Shown here: one piece after another, positions 135 to 56,551 of the stretch
Numbering within the stretch: position 1 is the stretch's first letter
Layout: each line of letters starts with the position of its first letter
Assembly (NCBI GenBank): GCA_943735955.1
Contig: OX030962.1
Span: 216,001 to 280,000 of the forward strand
Origin: Piscicola geometra
Taxonomy: Eukaryota > Annelida > Clitellata > Hirudinida > Piscicolidae
Reading direction: 5' to 3'
DNA length: 64,000 nucleotides
Position numbers and translations under genes: made by a program
The notes under the pieces: generated by a model
Seen by the model: the letters and a program-made list of their open reading frames with translations, nothing else
The model's database searches: none
What the model was told of the DNA's origin: nothing

Positions 135-3100
135 GCAACTACTACAGTCTGAAGCAGCAGCACGACAAGGCAGTGCACTACTTCCAACGGGCGATCCGTC
201 TGGAAGCGACCTACCTGACGGCATGGACGCTGATGGGACATGAATACATGGAACTCAAGTCCACCTCGGCTGCCATCCTTTGCTACCGCAGAGCCATCGG
301 TAGGAGGGGCTGGTTGGTGGTCAGTTGAAAGGGCAGGTGGCGTTATACCGGATATCTAACTTCTAAAACATTTCTATTTCGTCTATTTTTTATTTTATTT
401 TTGAAAGTATTTTATTTATTTATTCATATTTATATGTTCACCACTCGTCCACCGAGCAACCACCACCGCTCAGACGTGAACAAGCGGGACTACAGGGCGT
501 GGTATGGCCTGGGACAGACGTACGAGATCCTCAAGATGCCCTTCTACTCTCTCTACTACTACAAACAGGCGCATCTCCTCCGGTCAGCCTCGATCAAACT
601 TTTCTGGTTTTCAAACCATTTAACCTTCTCTAAGAAGTAACATCATCCAGTGATAAGTTTACTGTAATCAAGCTTGCAGAACCGCCTCTTTTTCTTCGGC
701 TCGGCTTTGGCTCTCTATAGAAGGGGTGTCATACGAGAAAAACTTGCGCAAACTTTGACTTAACAATTGTTGCAACAAAAGAAAGCACAATTTATGATAA
801 GCAGTGCCTTCTAATTGGTTAACTGAATTTTTTTCATAGATAACGATGTTATATTAAAACAGTTATAGGAGCGAAATTGTTTTGTTGTTCCGGCTTCACC
901 AAAGTGTAGCGGCTCTTCGGCTTCACGGCTCTGGTTCTGGCTCGGCTCTACACCACCACACTTCTCTATATAGCCCTGAAGCACCACCACCACACCACTT
1001 CATATATCCCGCCAAAGCACACACGAGCAAACCAAGCCACCACACCACTGGCGCCCAGACCAAACGACTCTCGCATGGTGGTGGCGCTGGGCGAGGCGTA
1101 CGACAAGCTGGGCTGGCTGCAGGAGGCGAAGAGGTGCTACTGGAAGGCCAGGTCGCTCGGAGACGCCGAAGGACTCGCTCTCCTCAAACTCGCCAAGTTG
1201 GTGGTGATGATGAGGGTGATGATGATGATGATGAGGGTGGTGGTGTTTGTTGGTGGTGATGATGATGATGAGGGTGGTGGTGTTTGTTGGTGGTGATGAT
1301 GATGATGATGATGATGATGAGGGTGGTCGTGTTTGTTGGTGATGATGATGATGAGGGTGATGATGATGATGATGATGATGATGAGGGTGGTCGTGTTTGT
1401 TGGTGGTGCTGATGATGATGATGATGATGATGAGGGTGGTCGTGTTTGTTGGTGGTGATGATGATGATGAGGGTGGTGTTTGTTGGTGATGATGATGATG
1501 AGGCGGGTCGTGTTTGTTGGTGGTGATGATGATGAGGGTGGTCGTGTTTGTTGGTGATGATGATGATGAGGGTGGTGTTTTGGTGTTGGTGGCTTGTAAA
1601 TAAATAAGTAATAAATAAATTTGTGGGTTTTAGGTGGTGTTTATGATGATATGTTGGTGGTGGTGTTGAGGTGCGGTTGTTGGGGTGGTTTTGTTTTGGT
1701 GGTGTGGTTGTTGGTGGTAAGGTTGTTGGTGGTTGGGTTGTTGGTGGTGGTGGTGTTGGTGATGGGGCTTTTGGTGGTGGGGATGTTGGTCGTGTGGTTG
1801 TTGGTGGTGGGGATGTTGGTCGTGTGGTTGTTGGTGGTGGGGATGTTGGTCGTGTGGTTGTTGGTGGTGGGGATGTTGGTCGTGTAGTTGTTGGTGGTGG
1901 GGTTGTTGGTGGTGTGGTTGTTGGTGGTGGGGATGTTGGTGGTGTGGTTGTTGGTGGTGTGGTTGTTGGTGGTGTGGTTGTTGGGGTGGTTTTGTGTTAG
2001 TGGTGTGGTTGACGTGTTTTTGGTGTGATTGGTCATTCATGAGGTTGTTGAGGTGTTGGTGGTGAGCGTGTTGGCTTAGATGGTAAGTCATAGGACTTGC
2101 AACTTAAAGGTCGCAGGTTCGAACCCCCTGATGAGCAACCGTGAGCTATCATATACCTAGTTTCGTGCCTTGGCGCTTTATAAAGACGCATTATTTGTTA
2201 TATATTTATTGTTATTAATATTTATTCGAGTGAGGTTTATGGGCAGTTAATGATCGCTTGTGTCAACAATTTATGAAAGTCCCTCCTGGTGATGAGTGGG
2301 ATGTTGAGTATTCAAGTGTGCTGATCAGGCTGTGGCAGTGCTTTTGATCATAATCAAGATGATGATGCTGATGATGATAATGATACAGTCTCTTTGAGAA
2401 GCTGGACGACAACAGACAGGCTGCAGGGGCGTACACTGCATACATCAACGAGACCATCCAGGTCTCCATCACCCTCTCCTTCCAACAAAACACACAACAC
2501 CACATAAAACAAAAAACCGCACACACATAACACACACACACACAGATCCGCAGGGAAGGACAGGCGCACGCCTTCTGCTTCCTAGCAAACTACCACTTGA
2601 CGCAGCAGAACTTCGAGGACGCCTACATCGCTGCCCAACGATGCTCCGACTACCCTGAGGTTCTTGCTCTTGTTGTTGAGTTTTTGTTGCTCCTAATGTT
2701 GTTAATGTTGTTTGTTGCTCCTAATGTTACTGTTGCTGCTAATGTTGCTTAATGAATAAAAGATCTTTTTACTTTTTAGTTAATTTTTTTAAAATTAAAA
2801 CAAAAAAATATTTTAATCATCTATAAATCATTGAATAAATAGGTAAATTAAAATAATATTTTAAATATAAATTTTAAATACCGTTTTAAAATGTTTATAG
2901 AGCACTTTTTTATCTCTAGAATTTGCTTTCGAGTGCTAGTGCGCCTTATACATGGAGCTTTTCGTTAGAGCTAGCTTGAGACCTCCAGGGCACAGTATTT
3001 GTTGACTAGCTTTTTGAATAAGTAATTGAAAGAGTACTTGACTGAGTAATTGACTGAGTACTTGAATAAGTAATTGACTGAGTACTTGAATAAGTAATTG

Positions 3101-6100
3101 ACTGAGTACTTGAATAAGTAATTGACTGAGTAATTGAATAAGTAATTGACTGAGTACTTGAATAAGTAATTGACTGAGTACTTGAATAAGTAATTGACTG
3201 AGTACTTGAATAAGTAATTGACTGAGTACTTGAATAAGTAATTGACTGAGTACTTGAATAAGTAATTGACTGAGTAATTGAATAAGTAATTGACTGAGTA
3301 CTTGAATAAGTAATTGACTGAGTACTTGAATAAGTAATTGACTGAGTACTTGAATAAGTAATTGACTGAGTACTTGAATAAGTAATTGACTGAGTAATTG
3401 AATAAGTAATTGACTGAGTACTTGACTAAGTAATTGACTGAGTAATTGAATAAGTAATTGACTGAGTAATTGAATAAGTAATTGACTGAGTACTTGACTA
3501 AGTAATTGACTGAGTACTTGAATAAGTAATTGACTGAGTACTTGAATAAGTAATTGACTGAGTACTTGACTAAGTAATTGACTGAGTACTTGAATAAGTA
3601 ATTGACTGAGTACTTGAATAAGTAATTGACTGAGTACTTGAATAAGTAATTGACTGAGTACTTGAATAAGTAATTGACTGAGTACTTGAATAAGTAATTG
3701 ACTGAGTACTTGAATAAGTAATTGACTGAGTACTTGACTAAGTAATTGACTGAGTACTTGAATAAGTAATTGACTGAGTACTTGAATAAGTAATTGACTG
3801 AGTACTTGAATAAGTAATTGACTGAGTACTTGAATAAGTAATTGACTGAGTACTTGACTAAGTAATTGACTGAGTACTTGACTAAGTAATTGACTGAGTA
3901 CTTGAATAAGTAATTGACTGAGTACTTGAATAAGTAATTGACTGAGTACTTGAATAAGTAATTGACTGAGTACTTGACTAAGTAATTGACTGAGTACTTG
4001 AATAAGTAATTGACTGAGTACTTGAATAAGTAATTGACTGAGTACTTGAATAAGTAATTGACTGAGTAATTGAATAAGTAATTGACTGAGTAATTGAATA
4101 AGTAATTGACTGAGTAATTGAATAAGTAATTGACTGAGTACTTGAATAAGTAATTGACTGAGTACTTGAATAAGTACTTGACTGAGTACTTGAATAAGTA
4201 ATTGACTGAGTACTTGAATAAGTAATTGACTGAGTACTTGACTAAGTAATTGACTGAGTACTTGAATAAGTAATTGACTGAGTACTTGAATAAGTAATTG
4301 ACTGAGTAATTGAATAAGTAATTGACTGAGTAATTGAATAAGTAATTGACTGAGTACTTGAATAAGTAATTGACTGAGTACTTGAATAAGTAATTGACTG
4401 AGTAATTGAATAAGTAATTGACTGAGTAATTGAATAAGTAATTGACTGAGTAATTGAATAAGTAATTGACTGAGTACTTGAATAAGTAATTGACTGAGTA
4501 CTTGACTAAGTAATTGATTGAGTAATTGAATAAGTAATTGACTGAGTAATTGAATAAGTAATTGACTGAGTACTTGAATAAGTAATTGACTGAGTAATTG
4601 AATAAGTAATTGACTGAGTAATTGAATAAGTAATTGACTGAGTACTTGACTAAGTAATTGACTGAGTACTTGAATAAGTAATTGACTGAGTAATTGAATA
4701 AGTAATTGACTGAGTAATTGAATAAGTAATTGACTGAGTACTTGAATAAGTAATTGACTGAGTAATTGAATAAGTAATTGACTGAGTACTTGAATAAGTA
4801 ATTGACTGAGTAATTGAATAAGTAATTGACTGAGTACTTGAATAAGTAATTGACTGAGTAATTGAATAAGTAATTGACTGAGTACTTGAATAAGTAATTG
4901 ACTGAGTACTTGAATAAGTAATTGACTGAGTACTTGAATAAGTAATTGACTGAGTACTTGAATAAGTAATTGACTGAGTACTTGACTAAGTAATTGACTG
5001 AGTACTTGACTAAGTAATTGACTGAGTACTTGAATAAGTAATTGACTGATTACTTGAATAAGTAATTGACTGAGTACTTGAATAAGTAATTGACTGAGTA
5101 CTTGAATAAGTAATTGACTGAGTACTTGAATAAGTAATTGACTGAGTACTTGAATAAGTAATTGACTGAGTACTTGAATAAGTAATTGACTGAGTACTTG
5201 AATAAGTAATTGACTGAGTACTTGAATAAGTAATTGACTGAGTACTTGAATAAGTACTTGACTGAGTACTTGAATAAGTAATTGACTGAGTACTTGAATA
5301 AGTACTTGACTGAGTAATTGAATAAGTACTTGACTGAGTACTTGAATAAGTACTTGACTGAGTACTTGACTAAGTAATTGACTGAGTACTTGAATAAGTA
5401 ATTGACTGAGTACTTGAATAAGTAATTGACTGAGTACTTGAATAAGTAATTGACTGAGTACTTGACTAAGTAATTGATTGAGTAATTGAATAAGTAATTG
5501 ACTGAGTAATTGAATAAGTAATTGACTGAGTACTTGAATAAGTAATTGACTGAGTACTTGAATAAGTACTTGACTGAGTACTTGAATAAGTAATTGACTG
5601 AGTACTTGAATAAGTAATTGACTGAGTACTTGAATAAGTAATTGACTGAGTACTTGAATAAGTAATTGACTGAGTACTTGAATAAGTAATTGACTGAGTA
5701 ATTGAATAAGTAATTGACTGAGTACTTGAATAAGTAATTGACTGAGTACTTGAATAAGTAATTGACTGAGTACTTGAATAAGTAATTGACTGAGTACTTG
5801 ACTAAGTAATTGACTGAGTAATTGAATAAGTAATTGACTGAGTAATTGAATAAGTAATTGACTGAGTACTTGAATAAGTAATTGACTGAGTACTTGAATA
5901 AGTAATTGACTGAGTACTTGAATAAGTAATTGACTGAGTACTTGAATAAGTAATTGACTGAGTACTTGAATAAGTAATTGACTGAGTACTTGAATAAGTA
6001 ATTGACTGAGTACTTGAATAAGTAATTGACTGAGTACTTGAATAAGTAATTGACTGAGTACTTGAATAAGTAATTGACTGAGTACTTGAATAAGTAATTG

Positions 6101-12100: not shown

Positions 12101-15100
12101 ACTGAGTACTTGAATAAGTAATTGACTGAGTAATTGAATAAGTAATTGACTGAGTACTTGAATAAGTAATTGACTGAGTAATTGAATAAGTAATTGACTG
12201 AGTAATTGAATAAGTAATTGACTGAGTAATTGAATAAGTAATTGACTGAGTACTTGAATAAGTAATTGACTGAGTACTTGAATAAGTAATTGACTGAGTA
12301 CTTGAATAAGTAATTGACTGAGTACTTGAATAAGTAATTGACTGAGTACTTGAATAAGTAATTGACTGAGTACTTGAATAAGTAATTGACTGAGTAATTG
12401 AATAAGTAATTGACTGAGTAATTGAATAAGTAATTGACTGAGTAATTGACTAAGTAATTGACTGAGTACTTGAATAAGTAATTGACTGAGTACTTGAATA
12501 AGTAATTGACTGAGTACTTGACTAAGTACTTGACTGAGTACTTGAATAAGTAATTGACTGAGTAATTGAATAAGTAATTGACTGAGTAATTGAATAAGTA
12601 ATTGACTGAGTACTTGAATAAGTAATTGACTGAGTACTTGAATAAGTAATTGACTGAGTACTTGAATAAGTAATTGACTGAGTACTTGAATAAGTAATTG
12701 ACTGAGTACTTGAATAAGTAATTGACTGAGTACTTGAATAAGTAATTGACTGAGTACTTGACTAAGTAATTGATTGAGTAATTGAATAAGTAATTGACTG
12801 AGTAATTGAATAAGTAATTGACTGAGTAATTGAATAAGTACTTGACTGAGTACTTGAATAAGTAATTGACTGAGTACTTGACTAAGTAATTGACTGAGTA
12901 CTTGAATAAGTAATTGACTGAGTACTTGAATAAGTAATTGACTGAGTACTTGAATAAGTAATTGACTGAGTACTTGACTAAGTAATTGACTGAGTACTTG
13001 ACTAAGTAATTGATTGAGTAATTGAATAAGTAATTGACTGAGTAATTGAATAAGTAATTGACTGAGTACTTGAATAAGTAATTGACTGAGTACTTGAATA
13101 AGTAATTGACTGAGTAATTGAATAAGTAATTGACTGAGTAATTGAATAAGTAATTGACTGAGTACTTGAATAAGTAATTGACTGAGTACTTGAATAAGTA
13201 ATTGACTGAGTACTTGAATAAGTAATTGACTGAGTACTTGAATAAGTAATTGACTGAGTACTTGAATAAGTAATTGACTGAGTACTTGACTAAGTAATTG
13301 ATTGAGTAATTGAATAAGTAATTGACTGAGTAATTGAATAAGTAATTGACTGAGTAATTGAATAAGTACTTGACTGAGTACTTGAATAAGTACTTGACTG
13401 AGTAATTGAATAAGTAATTGACTGAGTACTTGAATAAGTAATTGACTGAGTACTTGAATAAGTAATTGACTGAGTACTTGAATAAGTAATTGACTGAGTA
13501 CTTGAATAAGTAATTGACTGAGTACTTGAATAAGTAATTGACTGAGTAATTGAATAAGTAATTGACTGAGTACTTGAATAAGTAATTGACTGAGTACTTG
13601 AATAAGTAATTGACTGAGTACTTGAATAAGTAATTGACTGAGTACTTGAATAAGTACTTGACTGAGTAATTGAATAAGTAATTGACTGAGTACTTGAATA
13701 AGTAATTGACTGAGTACTTGAATAAGTAATTGACTGAGTACTTGAATAAGTAATTGACTGAGTAATTGAATAAGTACTTGACTGAGTACTTGAATAAGTA
13801 ATTGACTGAGTACTTGAATAAGTAATTGACTGAGTAATTGAATAAGTAATTGACTGAGTACTTGAATAAGTAATTGACTGAGTAATTGAATAAGTACTTG
13901 ACTGAGTACTTGAATAAGTAATTGACTGAGTACTTGACTAAGTAATTGACTGAGTAATTGAATAAGTAATTGACTGAGTACTTGAATAAGTAATTGACTG
14001 AGTAATTGAATAAGTAATTGACTGAGTACTTGAATAAGTAATTGATTGAGTACTTGAATAAGTAATTGACTGAGTAATTGAATAAGTAATTGACTGAGTA
14101 ATTGAATAAGTAATTGACTGAGTACTTGAATAAGTAATTGACTGAGTACTTGAATAAGTAATTGACTGAGTACTTGAATAAGTAATTGACTGAGTACTTG
14201 AATAAGTAATTGATTGAGTACTTGAATAAGTAATTGACTGAGTACTTGAATAAGTACTTGACTGAGTACTTGAATAAGTAATTGACTGAGTAATTGAATA
14301 AGTAATTGACTGAGTACTTGAATAAGTAATTGACTGAGTACTTGAATAAGTAATTGACTGAGTAATTGAATAAGTAATTGACTGAGTAATTGAATAAGTA
14401 ATTGACTGAGTACTTGAATAAGTACTTGACTGAGTACTTGAATAAGTAATTGACTGAGTACTTGAATAAGTAATTGACTGAGTACTTGAATAAGTACTTG
14501 ACTGAGTACTTGAATAAGTAATTGACTGAGTACTTGAATAAGTAATTGACTGAGTACTTGAATAAGTAATTGACTGAGTACTTGAATAAGTAATTGACTG
14601 AGTACTTGAATAAGTAATTGACTGAGTACTTGACTAAGTAATTGACTGAGTACTTGAATAAGTAATTGACTGAGTACTTGAATAAGTAATTGACTGAGTA
14701 CTTGAATAAGTAATTGACTGAGTACTTGAATAAGTAATTGACTGAGTAATTGAATAAGTAATTGACTGAGTACTTGAATAAGTAATTGACTGAGTACTTG
14801 AATAAGTAATTGACTGAGTACTTGAATAAGTACTTGACTGAGTAATTGAATAAGTAATTGACTGAGTACTTGAATAAGTAATTGACTGAGTACTTGAATA
14901 AGTAATTGACTGAGTAATTGAATAAGTAATTGACTGAGTACTTGAATAAGTAATTGACTGAGTACTTGAATAAGTAATTGACTGAGTAATTGAATAAGTA
15001 CTTGACTGAGTACTTGAATAAGTAATTGACTGAGTACTTGAATAAGTAATTGACTGAGTACTTGAATAAGTAATTGACTGAGTAATTGAATAAGTAATTG

Positions 15101-18100
15101 ACTGAGTACTTGAATAAGTAATTGACTGAGTACTTGAATAAGTAATTGACTGAGTACTTGAATAAGTAATTGACTGAGTACTTGAATAAGTAATTGACTG
15201 AGTAATTGAATAAGTACTTGACTGAGTAATTGAATAAGTAATTGACTGAGTACTTGAATAAGTAATTGACTGAGTACTTGAATAAGTAATTGACTGAGTA
15301 CTTGAATAAGTAATTGACTGAGTACTTGAATAAGTAATTGACTGAGTAATTGAATAAGTAATTGACTGAGTACTTGAATAAGTAATTGACTGAGTACTTG
15401 AATAAGTAATTGACTGAGTACTTGAATAAGTAATTGACTGAGTACTTGAATAAGTAATTGATTGAGTAATTGACTAAGTAATTGACTGAGTACTTGAATA
15501 AGTAATTGACTGAGTACTTGAATAAGTAATTGACTGAGTACTTGAATAAGTAATTGACTGAGTACTTGAATAAGTAATTGACTGAGTACTTGAATAAGTA
15601 ATTGACTGAGTACTTGAATAAGTAATTGACTGAGTACTTGAATAAGTAATTGACTGAGTAATTGAATAAGTAATTGACTGAGTACTTGAATAAGTACTTG
15701 ACTGAGTACTTGAATAAGTAATTGACTGAGTACTTGACTAAGTAATTGACTGAGTACTTGAATAAGTAATTGACTGAGTACTTGAATAAGTAATTGACTG
15801 AGTACTTGAATAAGTAATTGACTGAGTACTTGAATAAGTAATTGACTGAGTACTTGAATAAGTAATTGACTGAGTACTTGACTAAGTAATTGATTGAGTA
15901 ATTGAATAAGTAATTGACTGAGTAATTGAATAAGTAATTGACTGAGTAATTGAATAAGTACTTGACTGAGTACTTGAATAAGTAATTGACTGAGTACTTG
16001 ACTAAGTAATTGACTGAGTACTTGAATAAGTAATTGACTGAGTACTTGAATAAGTAATTGACTGAGTACTTGAATAAGTAATTGACTGAGTACTTGACTA
16101 AGTAATTGATTGAGTAATTGAATAAGTAATTGACTGAGTAATTGAATAAGTACTTGACTGAGTAATTGAATAAGTAATTGACTGAGTACTTGAATAAGTA
16201 ATTGACTGAGTACTTGACTAAGTAATTGATTGAGTAATTGAATAAGTAATTGACTGAGTAATTGAATAAGTAATTGACTGAGTACTTGAATAAGTAATTG
16301 ACTGAGTACTTGAATAAGTAATTGACTGAGTAATTGAATAAGTAATTGACTGAGTAATTGAATAAGTAATTGACTGAGTACTTGAATAAGTACTTGACTG
16401 AGTAATTGAATAAGTAATTGACTGAGTAATTGAATAAGTACTTGACTGAGTACTTGAATAAGTAATTGACTGAGTACTTGAATAAGTAATTGACTGAGTA
16501 CTTGAATAAGTAATTGACTGAGTACTTGAATAAGTAATTGACTGAGTACTTGAATAAGTAATTGACTGAGTACTTGAATAAGTAATTGACTGAGTACTTG
16601 AATAAGTAATTGACTGAGTACTTGAATAAGTACTTGACTGAGTACTTGAATAAGTAATTGACTGAGTACTTGAATAAGTAATTGACTGAGTAATTGAATA
16701 AGTAATTGACTGAGTACTTGAATAAGTAATTGACTGAGTAATTGAATAAGTACTTGACTGAGTACTTGAATAAGTAATTGACTGAGTACTTGACTAAGTA
16801 ATTGACTGAGTAATTGAATAAGTAATTGACTGAGTACTTGAATAAGTAATTGACTGAGTAATTGAATAAGTAATTGACTGAGTACTTGAATAAGTAATTG
16901 ATTGAGTACTTGAATAAGTAATTGACTGAGTAATTGAATAAGTAATTGACTGAGTAATTGAATAAGTAATTGACTGAGTACTTGAATAAGTAATTGACTG
17001 AGTACTTGAATAAGTAATTGACTGAGTACTTGAATAAGTAATTGACTGAGTACTTGAATAAGTAATTGATTGAGTACTTGAATAAGTAATTGACTGAGTA
17101 CTTGAATAAGTACTTGACTGAGTACTTGAATAAGTAATTGACTGAGTAATTGAATAAGTAATTGACTGAGTACTTGAATAAGTAATTGACTGAGTACTTG
17201 AATAAGTAATTGACTGAGTAATTGAATAAGTAATTGACTGAGTACTTGAATAAGTAATTGACTGAGTACTTGAATAAGTACTTGACTGAGTACTTGAATA
17301 AGTAATTGACTGAGTACTTGAATAAGTAATTGACTGAGTACTTGAATAAGTAATTGACTGAGTACTTGAATAAGTAATTGACTGAGTACTTGAATAAGTA
17401 ATTGACTGAGTACTTGACTAAGTAATTGACTGAGTACTTGAATAAGTAATTGACTGAGTACTTGAATAAGTAATTGACTGAGTACTTGAATAAGTAATTG
17501 ACTGAGTACTTGAATAAGTAATTGACTGAGTAATTGAATAAGTAATTGACTGAGTACTTGAATAAGTAATTGACTGAGTACTTGAATAAGTAATTGACTG
17601 AGTACTTGAATAAGTACTTGACTGAGTAATTGAATAAGTAATTGACTGAGTACTTGAATAAGTAATTGACTGAGTACTTGAATAAGTAATTGACTGAGTA
17701 ATTGAATAAGTAATTGACTGAGTACTTGAATAAGTAATTGACTGAGTACTTGAATAAGTAATTGACTGAGTAATTGAATAAGTACTTGACTGAGTACTTG
17801 AATAAGTAATTGACTGAGTACTTGAATAAGTAATTGACTGAGTACTTGAATAAGTAATTGACTGAGTAATTGAATAAGTAATTGACTGAGTACTTGAATA
17901 AGTAATTGACTGAGTACTTGAATAAGTAATTGACTGAGTACTTGAATAAGTAATTGACTGAGTACTTGAATAAGTAATTGACTGAGTAATTGAATAAGTA
18001 CTTGACTGAGTAATTGAATAAGTAATTGACTGAGTACTTGAATAAGTAATTGACTGAGTACTTGAATAAGTAATTGACTGAGTACTTGAATAAGTAATTG

Positions 18101-21100
18101 ACTGAGTACTTGAATAAGTAATTGACTGAGTACTTGAATAAGTAATTGACTGAGTAATTGAATAAGTAATTGACTGAGTACTTGAATAAGTAATTGATTG
18201 AGTAATTGAATAAGTAATTGACTGAGTACTTGAATAAGTAATTGACTGAGTAATTGAATAAGTACTTGACTGAGTACTTGAATAAGTAATTGACTGAGTA
18301 ATTGAATAAGTAATTGACTGAGTACTTGAATAAGTAATTGACTGAGTAATTGAATAAGTAATTGATTGAGTACTTGAATAAGTAATTGACTGAGTAATTG
18401 AATAAGTAATTGACTGAGTACTTGAATAAGTAATTGACTGAGTACTTGAATAAGTAATTGACTGAGTAATTGAATAAGTAATTGACTGAGTACTTGAATA
18501 AGTAATTGACTGAGTACTTGACTAAGTAATTGATTGAGTAATTGAATAAGTAATTGACTGAGTAATTGAATAAGTAATTGACTGAGTACTTGAATAAGTA
18601 ATTGACTGAGTACTTGAATAAGTAATTGACTGAGTACTTGAATAAGTAATTGACTGAGTACTTGAATAAGTAATTGATTGAGTAATTGACTAAGTAATTG
18701 ACTGAGTACTTGAATAAGTAATTGACTGAGTACTTGAATAAGTAATTGACTGAGTACTTGAATAAGTAATTGACTGAGTACTTGAATAAGTAATTGACTG
18801 AGTACTTGAATAAGTAATTGACTGAGTACTTGAATAAGTAATTGACTGAGTACTTGAATAAGTAATTGACTGAGTAATTGAATAAGTAATTGACTGAGTA
18901 CTTGAATAAGTACTTGACTGAGTACTTGAATAAGTAATTGACTGAGTACTTGACTAAGTAATTGACTGAGTACTTGAATAAGTAATTGACTGAGTACTTG
19001 AATAAGTAATTGACTGAGTACTTGAATAAGTAATTGACTGAGTACTTGAATAAGTAATTGACTGAGTACTTGAATAAGTAATTGACTGAGTACTTGAATA
19101 AGTAATTGACTGAGTACTTGAATAAGTAATTGACTGAGTACTTGAATAAGTAATTGACTGAGTACTTGAATAAGTAATTGACTGAGTACTTGACTAAGTA
19201 ATTGACTGAGTAATTGACTAAGTAATTGACTGAGTACTTGAATAAGTAATTGACTGAGTACTTGACTAAGTAATTGACTGAGTACTTGAATAAGTAATTG
19301 ACTGAGTACTTGAATAAGTAATTGACTGAGTACTTGAATAAGTAATTGACTGAGTACTTGAATAAGTAATTGACTGAGTACTTGAATAAGTAATTGACTG
19401 AGTACTTGAATAAGTACTTGACTGAGTAATTGAATAAGTAATTGACTGAGTACTTGAATAAGTAATTGACTGAGTACTTGAATAAGTAATTGACTGAGTA
19501 CTTGAATAAGTAATTGACTGAGTAATTGAATAAGTAATTGACTGAGTACTTGAATAAGTAATTGACTGAGTACTTGAATAAGTAATTGACTGAGTACTTG
19601 AATAAGTAATTGACTGAGTACTTGAATAAGTAATTGACTGAGTACTTGAATAAGTAATTGACTGAGTACTTGAATAAGTAATTGACTGAGTACTTGAATA
19701 AGTAATTGATTGAGTACTTGAATAAGTAATTGACTGAGTACTTGAATAAGTAATTGACTGAGTACTTGAATAAGTAATTGACTGAGTACTTGAATAAGTA
19801 ATTGACTGAGTACTTGAATAAGTAATTGACTGAGTACTTGAATAAGTAATTGACTGAGTACTTGAATAAGTAATTGATTGAGTACTTGAATAAGTAATTG
19901 ACTGAGTACTTGAATAAGTAATTGACTGAGTACTTGAATAAGTAATTGACTGAGTACTTGAATAAGTAATTGACTGAGTACTTGAATAAGTAATTGACTG
20001 AGTACTTGAATAAGTAATTGACTGAGTACTTGAATAAGTAATTGACTGAGTAATTGAATAAGTAATTGACTGAGTAATTGAATAAGTAATTGACTGAGTA
20101 CTTGAATAAGTAATTGACTGAGTAATTGAATAAGTAATTGACTGAGTAATTGAATAAGTAATTGACTGAGTACTTGAATAAGTAATTGACTGAGTACTTG
20201 AATAAGTAATTGACTGAGTAATTGAATAAGTAATTGACTGAGTAATTGAATAAGTAATTGACTGAGTACTTGAATAAGTAATTGACTGAGTACTTGAATA
20301 AGTAATTGACTGAGTAATTGAATAAGTAATTGACTGAGTAATTGAATAAGTAATTGACTGAGTACTTGAATAAGTAATTGACTGAGTACTTGAATAAGTA
20401 ATTGACTGAGTACTTGAATAAGTAATTGACTGAGTAATTGAATAAGTAATTGACTGAGTACTTGAATAAGTAATTGACTGAGTACTTGAATAAGTAATTG
20501 ACTGAGTAATTGAATAAGTAATTGACTGAGTACTTGACTAAGTAATTGACTGAGTACTTGAATAAGTAATTGACTGAGTACTTGAATAAGTAATTGACTG
20601 AGTAATTGACTAAGTAATTGACTGAGTACTTGAATAAGTAATTGACTGAGTACTTGAATAAGTAATTGACTGAGTACTTGAATAAGTAATTGACTGAGTA
20701 CTTGAATAAGTAATTGACTGAGTACTTGAATAAGTAATTGACTGAGTACTTGAATAAGTACTTGACTGAGTACTTGAATAAGTAATTGACTGAGTACTTG
20801 AATAAGTAATTGACTGAGTAATTGAATAAGTAATTGACTGAGTAATTGAATAAGTAATTGACTGAGTACTTGAATAAGTAATTGACTGAGTAATTGAATA
20901 AGTAATTGACTGAGTAATTGAATAAGTAATTGACTGAGTAATTGAATAAGTAATTGACTGAGTAATTGAATAAGTAATTGACTGAGTAATTGAATAAGTA
21001 ATTGACTGAGTAATTGAATAAGTAATTGACTGAGTACTTGACTAAGTAATTGACTGAGTACTTGAATAAGTAATTGACTGAGTACTTGAATAAGTAATTG

Positions 21101-24100
21101 ACTGAGTACTTGAATAAGTAATTGACTGAGTACTTGAATAAGTAATTGACTGAGTACTTGAATAAGTAATTGACTGAGTAATTGAATAAGTAATTGACTG
21201 AGTACTTGAATAAGTAATTGACTGAGTACTTGAATAAGTAATTGACTGAGTACTTGACTAAGTAATTGACTGAGTACTTGAATAAGTAATTGACTGAGTA
21301 CTTGAATAAGTAATTGACTGAGTGCTTGAATAAGTAATTGACTGAGTGCTTGAATAAGTAATTGACTGAGTAATTGAATAAGTAATTGAAAGAGTACTTG
21401 AATAAGTAATTGACTGAGTACTTGAATAAGTAATTGACTGAGTACTTGAATAAGTAATTGACTGAGTACTTGAATAAGTACTTGACTGAGTACTTGACTA
21501 AGTAATTGACTGAGTACTTGAATAAGTAATTGACTGAGTACTTGAATAAGTAATTGACTGAGTAATTGAATAAGTACTTGACTGAGTACTTGAATAAGTA
21601 ATTGACTGAGTACTTGAATAAGTAATTGACTGAGTACTTGAATAAGTAATTGACTGAGTAATTGAATAAGTACTTGACTGAGTACTTGAATAAGTAATTG
21701 ACTGAGTACTTGAATAAGTAATTGACTGAGTACTTGAATAAGTACTTGACTGAGTACTTGAATAAGTACTTGACTGAGTACTTGAATAAGTAATTGACTG
21801 AGTACTTGAATAAGTAATTGACTGAGTACTTGAATAAGTAATTGACTGAGTACTTGAATAAGTAATTGACTGAGTACTTGAATAAGTACTTGACTGAGTA
21901 CTTGAATAAGTAATTGACTGAGTACTTGAATAAGTAATTGACTGAGTACTTGAATAAGTAATTGACTGAGTACTTGAATAAGTAATTGACTGAGTACTTG
22001 AATAAGTAATTGACTGAGTACTTGAATAAGTAATTGACTGAGTACTTGAATAAGTAATTGACTGAGTACTTGAATAAGTAATTGACTGAGTACTTGAATA
22101 AGTAATTGACTGAGTACTTGAATAAGTAATTGACTGAGTACTTGAATAAGTAATTGACTGAGTACTTGAATAAGTAATTGACTGAGTACTTGAATAAGTA
22201 ATTGACTGAGTACTTGACTAAGTAATTGACTGAGTACTTGAATAAGTAATTGACTGAGTACTTGAATAAGTAATTGACTGAGTACTTGAATAAGTAATTG
22301 ACTGAGTACTTGAATAAGTAATTGACTGAGTACTTGACTAAGTAATTGACTGAGTACTTGAATAAGTAATTGACTGAGTACTTGAATAAGTAATTGACTG
22401 AGTACTTGAATAAGTAATTGACTGAGTACTTGAATAAGTAATTGACTGAGTACTTGAATAAGTAATTGACTGAGTACTTGAATAAGTAATTGACTGAGTA
22501 CTTGAATAAGTAATTGACTGAGTACTTGAATAAGTAATTGACTGAGTACTTGAATAAGTAATTGACTGAGTACTTGAATAAGTAATTGACTGAGTACTTG
22601 AATAAGTACTTGACTGAGTACTTGACTAAGTAATTGACTGAGTACTTGAATAAGTAATTGACTGAGTAATTGAATAAGTAATTGACTGAGTACTTGAATA
22701 AGTAATTGACTGAGTACTTGAATAAGTAATTGACTGAGTACTTGAATAAGTAATTGACTGAGTACTTGAATAAGTAATTGACTGAGTACTTGAATAAGTA
22801 ATTGACTGAGTGCTTGAATAAGTAATTGACTGAGTACTTGAATAAGTAATTGACTGAGTAATTGAATAAGTACTTGACTGAGTACTTGAATAAGTACTTG
22901 ACTGAGTACTTGAATAAGTACTTGACTGAGTACTTGACTAAGTAATTGACTGAGTACTTGAATAAGTACTTGACTGAGTACTTGAATAAGTAATTGACTG
23001 AGTACTTGAATAAGTAATTGACTGAGTACTTGAATAAGTAATTGACTGAGTACTTGAATAAGTAATTGACTGAGTACTTGAATAAGTAATTGACTGAGTA
23101 CTTGAATAAGTAATTGACTGAGTACTTGAATAAGTAATTGACTGAGTACTTGAATAAGTAATTGACTGAGTAATTGAATAAGTACTTGACTGAGTACTTG
23201 AATAAGTACTTGACTGAGTACTTGACTAAGTAATTGACTGAGTACTTGAATAAGTACTTGACTGAGTACTTGAATAAGTAATTGACTGAGTACTTGAATA
23301 AGTAATTGACTGAGTACTTGAATAAGTAATTGACTGAGTACTTGAATAAGTAATTGACTGAGTACTTGAATAAGTAATTGACTGAGTACTTGAATAAGTA
23401 ATTGACTGAGTACTTGAATAAGTACTTGACTGAGTACTTGACTAAGTAATTGACTGAGTACTTGAATAAGTACTTGACTGAGTACTTGAATAAGTAATTG
23501 ACTGAGTACTTGAATAAGTAATTGACTGAGTACTTGAATAAGTAATTGACTGAGTACTTGAATAAGTAATTGACTGAGTACTTGAATAAGTAATTGACTG
23601 AGTACTTGAATAAGTAATTGACTGAGTACTTGAATAAGTAATTGACTGAGTACTTGAATAAGTAATTGACTGAGTACTTGAATAAGTAATTGATTGAGTA
23701 ATTGAATAAGTAATTGACTGAGTACTTGAATAAGTAATTGACTGAGTACTTGAATAAGTAATTGACTGAGTACTTGAATAAGTAATTGACTGAGTAATTG
23801 AATAAGTAATTGACTGAGTACTTGAATAAGTAATTGACTGAGTACTTGAATAAGTAATTGACTGAGTACTTGAATAAGTAATTGACTGAGTACTTGAATA
23901 AGTAATTGACTGAGTACTTGAATAAGTAATTGACTGAGTACTTGAATAAGTAATTGACTGAGTAATTGAATAAGTAATTGACTGAGTACTTGAATAAGTA
24001 CTTGACTGAGTACTTGAATAAGTAATTGACTGAGTACTTGAATAAGTAATTGACTGAGTATTGAATAAGTAATTGACTGAGTACTTGAATAAGTAATTGA

Positions 24101-27100
24101 CTGAGTACTTGAATAAGTAATTGACTGAGTACTTGAATAAGTAATTGACTGAGTAATTGAATAAGTAATTGACTGAGTACTTGAATAAGTACTTGACTGA
24201 GTAATTGAATAAGTAATTGACTGAGTAATTGAATAAGTAATTGACTGAGTACTTGAATAAGTAATTGACTGAGTACTTGAATAAGTACTTGACTGAGTAC
24301 TTGAATAAGTAATTGACTGAGTACTTGAATAAGTAATTGACTGAGTATTGAATAAGTAATTGACTGAGTACTTGAATAAGTAATTGACTGAGTACTTGAA
24401 TAAGTAATTGACTGAGTACTTGAATAAGTAATTGACTGAGTAATTGAATAAGTAATTGACTGAGTACTTGAATAAGTACTTGACTGAGTAATTGAATAAG
24501 TAATTGACTGAGTAATTGAATAAGTAATTGACTGAGTACTTGAATAAGTACTTGACTGAGTAATTGAATAAGTAATTGACTGAGTAATTGAATAAGTAAT
24601 TGACTGAGTACTTGAATAAGTAATTGACTGAGTACTTGAATAAGTAATTGACTGAGTACTTGAATAAGTACTTGACTGAGTAATTGAATAAGTAATTGAC
24701 TGAGTAATTGAATAAGTAATTGACTGAGTACTTGAATAAGTAATTGACTGAGTACTTGACTAAGTAATTGACTGAGTACTTGAATAAGTAATTGACTGAG
24801 TAATTGAATAAGTACTTGACTGAGTAATTGAATAAGTAATTGACTGAGTACTTGAATAAGTAATTGACTGAGTACTTGAATAAGTAATTGACTGAGTACT
24901 TGAATAAGTAATTGACTGAGTACTTGAATAAGTAATTGACTGAGTACTTGAATAAGTAATTGACTGAGTACTTGAATAAGTAATTGACTGAGTACTTGAA
25001 TAAGTAATTGACTGAGTACTTGAATAAGTACTTGACTGAGTACTTGAATAAGTACTTGACTGAGTACTTGAATAAGTACTTGACTGAGTACTTGACTAAG
25101 TAATTGACTGAGTACTTGAATAAGTAATTGACTGAGTACTTGAATAAGTAATTGACTGAGTACTTGAATAAGTACTTGACTGAGTACTTGAATAAGTACT
25201 TGACTGAGTACTTGAATAAGTACTTGACTGAGTACTTGAATAAGTACTTGACTGAGTACTTGAATAAGTACTTGACTGAGTACTTGAATAAGTAATTGAC
25301 TGAGTACTTGAATAAGTAATTGACTGAGTACTTGAATAAGTACTTGACTGAGTACTTGACTAAGTAATTGACTGAGTACTTGAATAAGTAATTGATTGAG
25401 TAATTGACTAAGTACTTGACTGAGTACTTGAATAAGTACTTGACTGAGTACTTGAATAAGTACTTGACTGAGTACTTGAATAAGTACTTGACTGAGTACT
25501 TGAATAAGTACTTGACTGAGTACTTGAATAAGTACTTGACTGAGTACTTGAATAAGTAATTGACTGAGTACTTGAATAAGTAATTGACTGAGTACTTGAA
25601 TAAGTAATTGACTGAGTACTTGAATAAGTAATTGACTGAGTACTTGAATAAGTAATTGACTGAGTACTTGAATAAGTAATTGACTGAGTACTTGAATAAG
25701 TAATTGACTGAGTACTTGAATAAGTAATTGACTGAGTACTTGAATAAGTAATTGACTGAGTACTTGAATAAGTAATTGACTGAGTACTTGAATAAGTAAT
25801 TGACTGAGTACTTGAATAAGTAATTGACTGAGTACTTGAATAAGTAATTGACTGAGTAATTGAATAAGTAATTGACTGAGTACTTGAATAAGTAATTGAC
25901 TGAGTACTTGAATAAGTACTTGACTGAGTACTTGAATAAGTAATTGATTGAGTAATTGAATAAGTACTTGATTGAGTACTTGAATAAGTAATTGACTGAG
26001 TAATTGAATAAGTAATTGACTGAGTACTTGAATAAGTAATTGACTGAGTACTTGAATAAGTACTTGACTGAGTACTTGAATAAGTACTTGACTGAGTACT
26101 TGAATAAGTAATTGATTGAGTAATTGAATAAGTACTTGACTGAGTACTTGAATAAGTAATTGACTGAGTAATTGAATAAGTAATTGACTGAGTACTTGAA
26201 TAAGTAATTGACTGAGTACTTGAATAAGTAATTGACTGAGTAATTGAATAAGTACTTGACTGAGTACTTGAATAAGTAATTGACTGAGTACTTGACTAAG
26301 TAATTGACTGAGTAATTGAATAAGTAATTGACTGAGTACTTGAATAAGTACTTGACTGAGTACTTGAATAAGTAATTGATTGAGTAATTGAATAAGTACT
26401 TGACTGAGTACTTGAATAAGTAATTGACTGAGTAATTGAATAAGTAATTGACTGAGTACTTGAATAAGTAATTGACTGAGTACTTGAATAAGTAATTGAC
26501 TGAGTAATTGAATAAGTACTTGACTGAGTAATTGAATAAGTAATTGACTGAGTACTTGAATAAGTAATTGACTGAGTAATTGAATAAGTAATTGACTGAG
26601 TAATTGAATAAGTAATTGACTGAGTACTTGAATAAGTACTTGACTGAGTACTTGAATAAGTAATTGACTGAGTAATTGAATAAGTAATTGACTGAGTAAT
26701 TGAATAAGTACTTGACTGAGTACTTGAATAAGTACTTGACTGAGTACTTGAATAAGTACTTGACTGAGTACTTGAATAAGTAATTGATTGAGTAATTGAA
26801 TAAGTACTTGACTGAGTAATTGAATAAGTAATTGACTGAGTACTTGAATAAGTAATTGACTGAGTACTTGAATAAGTAATTGACTGAGTACTTGAATAAG
26901 TAATTGACTGAGTAATTGAATAAGTACTTGACTGAGTACTTGAATAAGTAATTGACTGAGTACTTGACTAAGTAATTGACTGAGTAATTGAATAAGTAAT
27001 TGACTGAGTACTTGAATAAGTAATTGACTGAGTACTTGAATAAGTAATTGACTGAGTACTTGAATAAGTAATTGACTGAGTACTTGAATAAGTAATTGAC

Positions 27101-30100
27101 TGAGTAATTGAATAAGTACTTGACTGAGTACTTGAATAAGTAATTGACTGAGTACTTGACTAAGTAATTGACTGAGTAATTGAATAAGTAATTGACTGAG
27201 TACTTGAATAAGTAATTGACTGAGTACTTGACTAAGTAATTGACTGAGTAATTGAATAAGTAATTGACTGAGTAATTGAATAAGTAATTGACTGAGTACT
27301 TGAATAAGTAATTGACTGAGTACTTGAATAAGTAATTGACTGAGTACTTGAATAAGTAATTGACTGAGTAATTGAATAAGTAATTGACTGAGTACTTGAA
27401 TAAGTAATTGACTGAGTAATTGAATAAGTAATTGACTGAGTACTTGAATAAGTAATTGACTGAGTACTTGAATAAGTACTTGACTGAGTACTTGACTAAG
27501 TAATTGACTGAGTACTTGAATAAGTAATTGACTGAGTACTTGAATAAGTAATTGACTGAGTACTTGAATAAGTACTTGACTGAGTAATTGAATAAGTAAT
27601 TGACTGAGTACTTGAATAAGTAATTGACTGAGTACTTGAATAAGTAATTGACTGAGTACTTGACTAAGTAATTGACTGAGTACTTGAATAAGTAATTGAC
27701 TGAGTACTTGAATAAGTAATTGACTGAGTACTTGAATAAGTAATTGACTGAGTACTTGAATAAGTAATTGACTGAGTACTTGAATAAGTAATTGACTGAG
27801 TACTTGAATAAGTAATTGACTGAGTAATTGAATAAGTAATTGACTGAGTAATTGAATAAGTAATTGACTGAGTAATTGAATAAGTAATTGACTGAGTACT
27901 TGAATAAGTAATTGATTGAGTAATTGACTAAGTAATTGACTGAGTAATTGAATAAGTAATTGACTGAGTACTTGAATAAGTACTTGACTGAGTACTTGAA
28001 TAAGTAATTGACTGAGTACTTGAATAAGTAATTGACTGAGTACTTGACTAAGTAATTGACTGAGTACTTGAATAAGTAATTGACTGAGTACTTGAATAAG
28101 TAATTGACTGAGTACTTGAATAAGTAATTGACTGAGTACTTGAATAAGTAATTGACTGAGTAATTGAATAAGTAATTGACTGAGTACTTGAATAAGTAAT
28201 TGACTGAGTACTTGAATAAGTAATTGACTGAGTACTTGAATAAGTAATTGACTGAGTAATTGACTAAGTAATTGACTGAGTAATTGACTAAGTAATTGAC
28301 TGAGTACTTGAATAAGTAATTGACTGAGTAATTGAATAAGTAATTGACTGAGTACTTGAATAAGTAATTGACTGAGTAATTGAATAAGTAATTGACTGAG
28401 TACTTGAATAAGTAATTGACTGAGTACTTGAATAAGTAATTGACTGAGTACTTGAATAAGTAATTGACTGAGTACTTGAATAAGTAATTGACTGAGTAAT
28501 TGAATAAGTAATTGACTGAGTAATTGAATAAGTAATTGACTGAGTACTTGAATAAGTAATTGACTGAGTACTTGAATAAGTAATTGACTGAGTACTTGAA
28601 TAAGTAATTGACTGAGTACTTGAATAAGTAATTGACTGAGTACTTGAATAAGTAATTGACTGAGTACTTGAATAAGTAATTGACTGAGTAATTGAATAAG
28701 TAATTGACTGAGTACTTGAATAAGTAATTGACTGAGTACTTGAATAAGTAATTGACTGAGTAATTGAATAAGTAATTGATTGAGTAATTGAATAAGTAAT
28801 TGACTGAGTACTTGAATAAGTAATTGACTGAGTAATTGAATAAGTAATTGACTGAGTAATTGAATAAGTAATTGACTGAGTACTTGAATAAGTAATTGAC
28901 TGAGTACTTGAATAAGTAATTGACTGAGTACTTGAATAAGTAATTGACTGAGTACTTGAATAAGTAATTGACTGAGTACTTGACTAAGTAATTGACTGAG
29001 TACTTGAATAAGTAATTGACTGAGTACTTGAATAAGTAATTGACTGAGTAATTGAATAAGTAATTGACTGAGTACTTGAATAAGTAATTGACTGAGTACT
29101 TGAATAAGTAATTGACTGAGTAATTGAATAAGTAATTGACTGAGTACTTGAATAAGTAATTGACTGAGTAATTGAATAAGTAATTGACTGAGTACTTGAA
29201 TAAGTAATTGACTGAGTAATTGAATAAGTAATTGACTGAGTACTTGAATAAGTAATTGACTGAGTAATTGAATAAGTAATTGACTGAGTACTTGACTAAG
29301 TAATTGACTGAGTACTTGAATAAGTAATTGACTGAGTACTTGAATAAGTAATTGACTGAGTACTTGAATAAGTAATTGACTGAGTACTTGAATAAGTAAT
29401 TGACTGAGTACTTGAATAAGTAATTGACTGAGTAATTGAATAAGTAATTGACTGAGTACTTGAATAAGTAATTGACTGAGTACTTGAATAAGTAATTGAC
29501 TGAGTACTTGAATAAGTAATTGACTGAGTACTTGAATAAGTAATTGACTGAGTACTTGAATAAGTAATTGACTGAGTACTTGAATAAGTACTTGACTGAG
29601 TACTTGAATAAGTAATTGACTGAGTACTTGAATAAGTAATTGACTGAGTACTTGACTAAGTAATTGATTGAGTACTTGACTAAGTAATTGATTGAGTACT
29701 TGAATAAGTAATTGACTGAGTAATTGAATAAGTAATTGACTGAGTACTTGAATAAGTAATTGACTGAGTACTTGAATAAGTAATTGACTGAGTACTTGAA
29801 TAAGTAATTGACTGAGTACTTGAATAAGTAATTGACTGAGTACTTGAATAAGTAATTGACTGAGTACTTGAATAAGTAATTGACTGAGTAATTGAATAAG
29901 TAATTGACTGAGTACTTGACTAAGTAATTGACTGAGTACTTGAATAAGTAATTGACTGAGTAATTGAATAAGTAATTGACTGAGTAATTGAATAAGTAAT
30001 TGACTGAGTACTTGAATAAGTAATTGACTGAGTAATTGAATAAGTAATTGACTGAGTAATTGAATAAGTAATTGACTGAGTAATTGAATAAGTAATTGAC

Positions 30101-32070
30101 TGAGTACTTGAATAAGTAATTGACTGAGTAATTGACTAAGTAATTGACTGAGTACTTGAATAAGTAATTGACTGAGTACTTGAATAAGTAATTGACTGAG
30201 TACTTGAATAAGTAATTGACTGAGTAATTGAATAAGTAATTGACTGAGTACTTGAATAAGTAATTGACTGAGTACTTGAATAAGTAATTGACTGAGTACT
30301 TGAATAAGTAATTGACTGAGTACTTGAATAAGTAATTGACTGAGTAATTGAATAAGTAATTGACTGAGTACTTGAATAAGTAATTGACTGAGTACTTGAA
30401 TAAGTAATTGACTGAGTAATTGAATAAGTAATTGACTGAGTAATTGAATAAGTAATTGACTGAGTACTTGAATAAGTAATTGACTGAGTACTTGAATAAG
30501 TAATTGACTGAGTACTTGAATAAGTAATTGACTGAGTACTTGAATAAGTAATTGACTGAGTACTTGACTAAGTAATTGATTGAGTACTTGACTAAGTAAT
30601 TGATTGAGTACTTGAATAAGTAATTGACTGAGTACTTGACTAAGTAATTGACTGAGTACTTGAATAAGTAATTGATTGAGTAATTGAATAAGTAATTGAC
30701 TGAGTAATTGAATAAGTAATTGACTGAGTACTTGAATAAGTAATTGACTGAGTAATTGAATAAGTAATTGACTGAGTACTTGAATAAGTAATTGACTGAG
30801 TACTTGAATAAGTAATTGACTGAGTACTTGAATAAGTAATTGACTGAGTACTTGAATAAGTAATTGACTGAGTACTTGAATAAGTAATTGATTGAGTACT
30901 TGAATAAGTAATTGACTGAGTACTTGAATAAGTAATTGACTGAGTAATTGAATAAGTAATTGACTGAGTAATTGAATAAGTACTTGACTGAGTACTTGAC
31001 TAAGTAATTGATTGAGTACTTGAATAAGTAATTGACTGAGTACTTGAATAAGTAATTGACTGAGTACTTGAATAAGTAATTGATTGAGTAATTGAATAAG
31101 TAATTGACTGAGTAATTGAATAAGTAATTGACTGAGTACTTGAATAAGTAATTGACTGAGTAATTGAATAAGTAATTGACTGAGTACTTGAATAAGTAAT
31201 TGACTGAGTACTTGAATAAGTAATTGACTGAGTACTTGAATAAGTAATTGACTGAGTACTTGAATAAGTAATTGACTGAGTACTTGAATAAGTAATTGAT
31301 TGAGTACTTGAATAAGTAATTGACTGAGTACTTGAATAAGTAATTGACTGAGTAATTGAATAAGTAATTGACTGAGTAATTGAATAAGTACTTGACTGAG
31401 TACTTGACTAAGTAATTGATTGAGTACTTGAATAAGTAATTGACTGAGTACTTGAATAAGTAATTGACTGAGTACTTGAATAAGTAATTGACTGAGTACT
31501 TGAATAAGTAATTGACTGAGTAATTGAATAAGTACTTGACTGAGTACTTGACTAAGTAATTGATTGAGTACTTGAATAAGTAATTGACTGAGTACTTGAA
31601 TAAGTACTTGACTGAGTAATTGAATAAGTAATTGACTGAGTACTTGAATAAGTAATTGACTGAGTACTTGAATAAGTAATTGACTGAGTAATTGAATAAG
31701 TAATTGACTGAGTAATTGAATAAGTACTTGACTGAGTACTTGAATAAGTACTTGACTGAGTAATTGAATAAGTAATTGACTGAGTAATTGAATAAGTAAT
31801 TGACTGAGTAATTGAATAAGTAATTGACTGAGTAATTGAATAAGTAATTGACTGAGTACTTGAATAAGTAATTGACTGAGTACTTGAATAAGTAATTGAT
31901 TAATTGTTTGACTGATGGATTGATTGAAGGTGAAGGAGGAAGGAAAGGCACTCTTGAAGCAGCTGGCTGGCTGCAGACTTACACAGGTTTGTGGTGTTGC
32001 CGATGTTCGTATTGTCGTGGTGCTGATGATGATGCTGAGTAAGGTCACACCAAGCAGAGCACTTAGATAA
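135..32070 (+). CDS. CDC23: Anaphase-promoting complex subunit 8 (CDC23), 3' part, six exons
   Basis: C-terminal part of the TPR scaffold subunit of the APC/C ubiquitin ligase, which drives mitotic exit in the nucleus. Exons seen: 135-299 (acceptor CACACAG, donor GTAGGA), 474-582, 1059-1200, about 2399-2461, 2546-2659, and terminal 31930-32070 with stop TAA. Recognisable APC8 segments in order are [118 protein letters not shown] and [10 protein letters not shown]. Phases agree at each junction (1-1, 2-2, 0-0). The third-to-fourth junction is uncertain: acceptor 2399 keeps phase but loses two family residues (FE), which acceptor 2389 would include out of phase. The last intron (2660-31929, 29.27 kb) is almost entirely a 24-bp minisatellite. 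The 5' exons lie outside the window. The C-terminal tail after the last TPR is shorter than I would expect. AATAAA at 32239 is a likely poly(A) signal. Confidence 0.88.
1201..1600. repeat. GATGAT/GGTGGT microsatellite-minisatellite in a CDC23 intron
   Basis: Irregular array of (GAT)n blocks alternating with GAGGGTGGTCGTGTTTGTTGG-like spacers. It begins immediately after the exon that ends at 1200. Any reading frame here is a repeat artefact. Confidence 0.85.
1640..2010. repeat. GTTGTTGGTGGTG minisatellite in a CDC23 intron
   Basis: Tandem GT-rich repeat, core GTTGTTGGTGGTGGGGATG then TTGGTCGTGTG, with four near-perfect longer units at about 1780-1890. Long open frames on both strands (His/Gln/Pro-rich or Gly/Val-rich) arise only from the repeat. 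Confidence 0.85.
2057..2200 (+). mobile_element. tRNA-derived SINE, copy 1
   Basis: An A-box-like GGCTTAGATGG is followed about 45 bp later by a perfect B box (GGTTCGAACCCC). After it comes a tail (GAGCAACCGTGAGCTATC, then ATATACCT) shared with a second copy at about 57880. It is internal-promoter-like and lies in a CDC23 intron. It is not a functional tRNA: I could not fold a complete acceptor stem, and the shared 3' body marks it as a SINE. Confidence 0.6.
3014..31900. repeat. 24-bp minisatellite array, ~28.9 kb, about 1,200 units, inside the last CDC23 intron
   Basis: The unit on the plus strand is two related 12-mers, TTGAATAAGTAA and TTGACTGAGTAC. Variation is almost all single-base: AATAAG/ACTAAG, GTAATTG/GTACTTG, TTGACTGAG/TTGATTGAG, and GTAC/GTAA at the unit end. 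Register is kept from about 3014 to 24060 without an indel. Single-base deletions occur near 24060 and 24347, and register is then kept again to 31900. All three minus-strand frames are free of stops (octapeptides [24 protein letters not shown]), while every plus-strand frame has a stop per unit. The long minus-strand open frames (2936-31951 and 23442-32048) are therefore a property of the unit and are not annotated as genes. The edges decay: GAAAGAG units near 3025-3040, and TTAATTGTTTGACTGATGG near 31900-31920. Confidence 0.97.
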
Positions 32071-33324: not shown

Positions 33325-40241
<6,917 letters not shown>

Positions 40242-43476: not shown

Positions 43477-44030
43477 AAGTAGAGACCGACCGAAATTCGG
43501 TTCGGTTTCGGTTTCGGCGCCGAAATTGCCAATTTTCTTAGTTTCGGCAATTTTTCGGTTTCGGCCGAATCTAATTTTACAATTTCGGCAATTTTTCGGT
43601 TTCGGCCGAAAATAATTTTGTAATTTCGGCTCAATTTCGGTTTCGGCCGCAATGGATCTCATATTTACCGAAAAACCGAAATTTTTATTTATTTATGTAG
43701 TTTATCTGATATATCTGTATCCTCAATCGAACTATTAAGTTCGGGTTCGATTCTCTATTAGATATCTATTAGTTATCGTGGTTGATTGATTTATGGGTGT
43801 CATCAGACCAATTATTCGAATAACATATACAAGCATCTGGAACAACAATCATGTATTTGAAATTTAAGTAAATTAGGATACGTTCAATGATGATATTTAA
43901 CAAAACTTTTTTTACGCAAATTCTATTTCTTAAAACATTTGTTTTAAAAATTGTTATTGTCAAAAGTAAGTATTTGTATATCCTCAATCGAACTCGAATT
44001 ATTAAGTTTGTGCACTCACAATCTTACCAT
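43477..44030. mobile_element. Unclassified insertion inside LINE copy 2
   Basis: The segment between the RT and endonuclease halves of the LINE opens with a TTTCGG-rich region (43490-43670: repeated AATTTTTCGGTTTCGGCC words). It continues with AT-rich DNA in which TCCTCAATCGAACT occurs twice, at about 43720 and 43981. It has no coding support. Insertion plus loss of the LINE RT N-terminus is inferred. Confidence 0.5.
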
Positions 44031-47309: not shown

Positions 47310-47419
47310 GCCAGGCTGTCACTGAGGATTTTCAGTTTTTGAAAATCAAAAGTCTTTCAAAGATATTATTGTATCTCTAAAGTTCCAAAGCTTTCATATT
47401 GTTAAAAAATCGTTGAAAG

Positions 47420-55925: not shown

Positions 55926-55997
55926 GCAGTGTGTTGATTGGTTCAATATTGTAGGAGTAACAGTACTAGAGCCACTTACTTAATCGACTGTAATAAA

Positions 55998-56551
<554 letters not shown>

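Follow-up and report, generated by a model that had tools for sequence, protein, structure and literature searches.

A 24-bp minisatellite of about 29 kb very probably lies within an intron of the cell-cycle gene CDC23 (APC8) in the leech Piscicola geometra

Long tandem arrays have been described inside introns before. TRACT, a 30-bp variable number tandem repeat (VNTR) located in an intron of the human CACNA1C gene, spans 3-30+ kb and is made up of recurring unit variants, its growth being attributed to runs of identical units and a run of 26 being present in some human alleles (PMC13131567). The Drosophila Y fertility genes kl-3 and kl-5 are described as having gigantic introns filled with satellite DNA (PMC6508621, PMC11207136). 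Here, we report on a 64-kb stretch of the genome of the piscicolid leech Piscicola geometra (contig 8, hereafter C8, positions 216,001-280,000; referred to as the window, to which all coordinates without a contig name belong), in which a 24-bp minisatellite of about 29 kb is flanked on both sides by exons of CDC23 (APC8). We favour, with a probability of roughly 0.85, the reading that the array occupies a genuine intron of this single-copy gene, that it represents a minisatellite private to the locus which has expanded to ~29 kb, and that it is tolerated there.

The CDC23 array resembles TRACT in being an intronic minisatellite of similar unit (24 versus 30 bp) and similar length with recurring unit variants, and differs from it in residing in the gene of a cell-cycle subunit, in an array-rich scaffold end, and in being known from one haplotype of one animal; its longest run of the commonest unit is 13, compared to 26 in some human alleles. 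As in kl-3 and kl-5, the intron to be transcribed and spliced out is filled with simple tandem repeats. The Drosophila introns, in contrast, are megabase-sized and belong to Y-linked genes expressed in spermatogenesis, whereas the CDC23 intron, at 29.3 kb, stays below the megabase range, carries an array private to its locus and belongs to a gene that all dividing cells are expected to need, in an animal recorded as a hermaphrodite (PMC11134150). The kind of structure found here is already known, the CACNA1C intronic VNTR being the closest to it, and its size is extreme for an ordinary gene. As a gap-free case in a household cell-cycle gene of a compact 171-Mb genome, it bears on how large a tandem array a single intron can carry.

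Upon translation, the window exons found their best match in chain 4ui9_C, a 'cell division cycle protein 23 homolog' which we take to be human (E 1.1e-79, chain residues 332-549); the alignment was free of gaps over the exon 14/15 junction region and contained a single 4-residue gap elsewhere. The Pfam family ANAPC8 scored above cut-off at two places upstream of the window exons; at one of these, the match included two in-frame stops, which fall in the intron bases preceding the exon. The identification of the gene as CDC23/APC8 in an earlier note on this DNA was thereby borne out. A Helobdella record displayed 59% identity to CDC23 here, and P0241, the record of a relative comprising 564 residues on a 1,809-nt contig, was 81% identical to the rough joined CDC23 translation. 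Guided by P0241, CDC23 exons could be recognised from C8:211,334 to C8:247,986, and all six of those in the window are flanked by AG and GT and form one open frame (Table 1). Searched against the genome (171,024,195 bases in 66 contigs), the window protein yielded six matches, five of them at the CDC23 locus and the sixth on C3, which was rejected as a second CDC23 because its best natural-protein match was CDC27. CDC23 (APC8) is single-locus in the genome searched. The COX1 of the mitochondrial contig (C66), translated with code 5, showed 97% identity, across the 447 residues searched, to a record of Codonobdella sp., a piscicolid leech.

The earlier note had placed the end of a CDC23 exon (...CSDYPE) at 2659 and the next residues of the protein from 31930 onwards in phase 0. 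The six-exon open frame, 4ui9_C and P0241 all agree with this placement, and exon 15, starting at 31930, is preceded by AG. P0241 carries the exact exon 14-exon 15 join (2659/31930) and appears to be transcript-like, judging from the 1,809 nt of its contig. Since P0241 contains this junction, the stretch in between, 2660-31929, is very probably an intron. Its measured length of 29,270 bp, 98.7% of which is array, is in line with the 29.27 kb and ~99% put forward previously. The other CDC23 introns in the window measure 84-1,192 bp, and the next longest of the whole gene ~1.4 kb (C8:212,280-213,641).

The further suggestion that this would be the last intron of the gene is probably wrong. Similarity to P0241 ends at 31986, exactly at CAG/GTTTGT (the slash marking the exon border), and P0241 runs 27 residues further, such that an additional coding exon after 31986 is likely on sequence grounds and the array intron is probably the penultimate coding intron. 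Down to C8:300,000, a range in which 2,700 N bases were unreadable, no such tail exon came to light with the tails of P0241, Helobdella P0242 and P0001; the best downstream scores for the three tails were 30, 34 and 40, respectively, versus 30, 33 and 34 in minus-strand controls. The candidate with a score of 40, near 35099, was unconvincing, as a stop is 49 residues away and the other two tails find no match there. Alternatively, it is possible that exon 15 is terminal and reads through to the stop at 32068-32070, with an AATAAA at 32239.

Minisatellites, or VNTRs, consist of head-to-tail units of about 10-100 bp, and the CDC23 array has both the unit size of this class (24 bp x 1,203.7) and an internal variant map, with 17 unit forms and block duplications exceeding those of shuffles. 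Tandem Repeats Finder (TRF) reported one uninterrupted run of 1,203.7 copies (3014-31899; 96% matches, indels 0% after rounding), as had been anticipated from a ~29-kb minisatellite of ~1,200 units. Cutting the array into units yielded 1,201 whole 24-mers, 726 of which are TTGAATAAGTAATTGACTGAGTAC, whereas the others differ from it mainly at unit positions 5, 12, 17 and 24; two 1-bp deletions are found inside the array (24062 and 24349). These figures for length and variant map describe one haplotype of one animal. The unit itself is composed of two related 12-bp halves, TTGAATAAGTAA and TTGACTGAGTAC, and in three of the four common unit variants (positions 5, 12 and 24), one half takes on the base found in its counterpart. 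The 64-kb window contains no N bases, which excludes a scaffold gap inside the array.

Allowing for up to three mismatches, the 24-mer was matched 1,204 times genome-wide, on the forward strand only, and every one of these matches sits in the CDC23 array. The array is thus private to its locus, and a genome-wide satellite was rejected on the same count. All 606 genome-wide occurrences of exact array 45-mers likewise fell in the window. The order of the unit variants is non-random, the longest exactly repeated run being 37 units, versus 12-18 in 20 shuffles. Self-alignment gave a top score of 73.6 (16.3 and 14.8 in two shuffles), corresponding to a ~65-unit block that recurs 119 units on, and, among the best 22 alignments, further repeated blocks at offsets of 9, 13, 17, 130, 238 and 918 units scored above the two shuffles. 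The longest exact repeat within the array is 911 bp (14438 / 17222). Patterns of this kind, in which variants are shared and blocks duplicated, suggest replication slippage together with unequal exchange or conversion. The array would have expanded by these processes from a two-part (12 + 12) seed, inside a host intron that would have measured ~0.4 kb before this growth. The unit-variant map makes turnover of the array measurable between the two deposited haplotypes, the alternate one being listed as GCA_943735945.1 (PMC11134150).

How the splicing machinery might pass over such a structure may be read from the distribution of its dinucleotides. Intron 14 harbors 2,426 AGs, 2,404 of which are located between 3040 and 31890, where 2,399 are spaced 12 nt and none more than 24 nt; for none of the AGs of 3100-31890 does the pyrimidine content of the preceding 30 bases exceed 50%. 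The true acceptor AG at 31928, 37 nt after the previous AG at 31891 (35 bases between), is, over the final 29 kb of the intron, the only one lying more than 24 nt after the preceding AG, and its own tract, at 53% pyrimidine, is weak. AG exclusion zones have reportedly been applied to branch-point prediction in human. The AGs of the array, ~12 nt apart and without a pyrimidine tract, would offer no good 3′ splice site; since acceptors would be missing from the array, its abundant donor-like GTs (2,429 GT dinucleotides in the intron), deprived of a partner, should define no false exon. Neither AATAAA nor ATTAAA occurs in the array, the AATAAA hexamers of this region lying before it (2755 and 2834) and after exon 15 (32239). 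Splicing would thus appear to ignore the array, which would be tolerated because it is, presumably, spliced out co-transcriptionally, with no dedicated function required. A random 24-bp unit has a fair chance of lacking such splice and polyadenylation (poly(A)) signals, which explains toleration and is not proof of selection. Because nearly all of the sequence between the two exons is one unit, the intron offers a well-defined natural experiment on what the splicing and transcription machineries disregard, with ~2,400 AG, ~2,400 GT, no poly(A) hexamers in the array and a single acceptor whose AG-free approach is longer.

The CDC23 locus lies 0.21-0.25 Mb from the scaffold end, among other long arrays. 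Outside the CDC23 array, tandem repeats account for 26,983 of the 82,414 non-N bases of C8:186,001-300,000. For comparison, eight interior 10-kb samples (one each from C1 to C8) and four further samples from the C8 end were analyzed; the interior samples were 0.5-27.4% tandem repeat, none of their arrays exceeding 408 bp. A 6.3-kb array of 20-bp units is present at C8:285068-291403, its exact 40-mers, 87 genome-wide, being all on C8 (81 there and 6 at C8:432481-432620), and a (TCTA)n run of 8.15 kb with one break, C8:294201-302353, starts directly after an N stretch. A 9-bp satellite, ATCGTCTTC, covers at least 19 kb at C8:90001-109084 and, among the matches listed, recurs over at least 86 kb near the C1 end (C1:63704-150144); its exact 36-mers number 7,669 genome-wide (3,322 forward and 4,347 reverse) and are dispersed. 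Giant arrays characterise this C8 scaffold end, and that of CDC23 is the longest seen complete, although larger tandem stretches may exist in the genome given the 9-bp satellite on C1. Like subtelomeric minisatellites and satellites in general, the CDC23 array sits less than 0.25 Mb from a scaffold end, near the 9-bp, 20-bp and (TCTA) arrays; unlike the dispersed 9-bp satellite, its unit is confined to one locus and one strand. Probably, we are dealing with a minisatellite of recent origin, tolerated in a chromosome end that is rich in repeats. The length and purity that the earlier note had found striking are as it described them, but the array is less isolated than it seemed, with multi-kilobase arrays within ~300 kb of the same end.

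A number of observations weigh against a tolerated, locally grown array in a spliced CDC23 intron. The 2659/31930 join is known from the P0241 record of a relative and not from P. geometra RNA. The donor, GAG/GTTCTT, is weak, in that 1,507 of the 2,429 GTs of the intron (the donor itself included) match a 9-base consensus equally well or better. No seed of the array was found in the intron flanks, where similarity to the unit was not significant (500 shuffles per flank), being equalled by 170 shuffles for 2960-3013, 158 for 2660-2959 and 66 for 31900-31929; TTGACTGA, beside the acceptor, was rejected as a seed on account of these 66 shuffles doing as well or better. Finally, one of the interior samples was 27.4% tandem, in short arrays, so that what sets the scaffold end apart is more the length of its arrays than its overall share of repeats.

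Whether the array might have been inflated, collapsed or misplaced in the course of assembly has to be considered in view of the HiFi libraries of this genome (reads ERR9744411), whose fragments averaged 12-20 kb after shearing (PMC11134150); with fragments of this size, hardly any single read, if any, would be expected to cover 29 kb, and block duplications are present within the array. Yet the longest exact internal repeat, 911 bp, is far below read size, such that HiFi reads can in principle tile the array, and both array edges pass into CDC23 intron sequence adjoining exons. With a window devoid of N and a published assembly of 76-fold HiFi coverage and a quality value (QV) of 51.3 (PMC11134150), we regard an assembly artefact as unlikely. 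Very unlikely, in our opinion, is a situation in which CDC23 transcripts mostly terminate ahead of the array, at poly(A) signals in the intron, yielding a protein without its last helix and leaving exon 15 as a relic. Two AATAAA hexamers do precede the array (2755 and 2834) while none lies within it, the intron 14 donor is weak, and reading through exon 14 adds 30 residues up to a stop at 2750-2752, just ahead of these signals; AATAAA, however, is frequent in AT-rich DNA anyway, the residues gained by read-through form a hydrophobic run that does not resemble the CDC23 tails compared, and exon 15 is intact, with 17 of its 19 residues identical to P0241, which itself has the full junction. Highly doubtful, too, is the idea that the array acts as a length-set governor of APC8 dose, with the polymerase either stopping at the preceding poly(A) signals or crossing 29 kb ahead of splicing of the full-length mRNA. 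If this were true, an early stop would lead to a product without the last helix, and allele length would tune the amount and timing of APC8, a core subunit of the anaphase-promoting complex.

It is extremely unlikely that the array is functional as a transcription delay, as a protein-binding sponge or as the template of an antisense transcript or protein. In keeping with such roles, it counts 1,388 copies of TAATTG, presumably a homeodomain core, displays a G-over-C skew of 0.37-0.51 per kilobase along its sense strand, and includes a 288-base piece, the one analyzed, that folds better than shuffles as single-stranded DNA (z -4.58; z -2.08 as RNA); in addition, a minus-strand open frame of 9,680 codons runs across it (2936-31978). 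Each of these features, however, follows from the repetition of the 24-bp unit, and this scaffold end abounds in long arrays. In particular, the minus-strand frame stays open since the unit lacks stops on this strand, stops being found in 0, 1 and 93 of 1,200 units in the three minus-strand frames, and an antisense gene was rejected for this reason. Function beyond toleration is not indicated for the minisatellite of CDC23.

Table 1 Features of the CDC23 locus in the window. Exon numbers follow our own count; slashes mark exon borders.
Feature	Position	Strand	Remarks
CDC23 exon 10 (...YRRAI)	135..299	+	4ui9_C and P0241 matches
CDC23 exon 11	474..582	+	4ui9_C and P0241 matches
CDC23 exon 12 (...LLKLA)	1059..1196	+	End placed by N in P0241 'LANLFEK'
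CDC23 exon 13	2389..2461	+	P0241 match
CDC23 exon 14 (...CSDYPE)	2546..2659	+	4ui9_C and P0241 matches
Intron 14 (very probable), 29,270 bp	2660..31929	+	GAG/GTTCTT ... TTGAAG/GTG; ~80% of recognised gene span
Two AATAAA (2755, 2834) and one ATTAAA (2794)	2755..2839	+	Candidate intronic poly(A) signals between exon 14 and array
24-bp minisatellite array, TTGAATAAGTAATTGACTGAGTAC	3014..31899	+	1,201 complete units of 17 forms; 1-bp deletions at 24062 and 24349
Internal block duplication	13766..18110	+	~65 units from 13766 versus ~62 units from 16622, offset 119 units
Sole non-array stretch before acceptor	31900..31929	+	Acceptor AG 31928, previous AG 31891
CDC23 exon 15	31930..31986	+	17/19 residues identical to P0241; probable donor CAG/GTTTGT follows

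Regarding the 5′ splice sites of CDC23 in general, not one of the 15 as placed conforms fully to GTAAGT, and several depart strongly from this sequence (GTGCAC, GTGCTT, GTGCCT, GTTGGT, GTCTCC and GTTCTT); GTTGGT is backed by the P0241 residue at its junction. CDC23 intron 12 contains a tRNA-like stretch (GGTTCGAACCC box, window 2060-2160), possibly a short interspersed element (SINE), which was not called as a tRNA by ARAGORN; no RNA genes or tRNA were detected in the window at Rfam gathering scores or by ARAGORN. Additional tandem arrays of the window are located at 33569-34489 (19-bp x 22.8 and 21-bp x 19.9) and 55997-56560 ((AC) x 282). Beyond CDC23, open frames resembling the reverse transcriptase (RT)/endonuclease of non-LTR (long terminal repeat) retrotransposons were recognized by eye on the minus strand at 37384-38392, 42071-43305 and 44024-45277, as was, on the plus strand, an Hsp70-like gene at 47417-49464 consisting of two open frames and an apparent intron.

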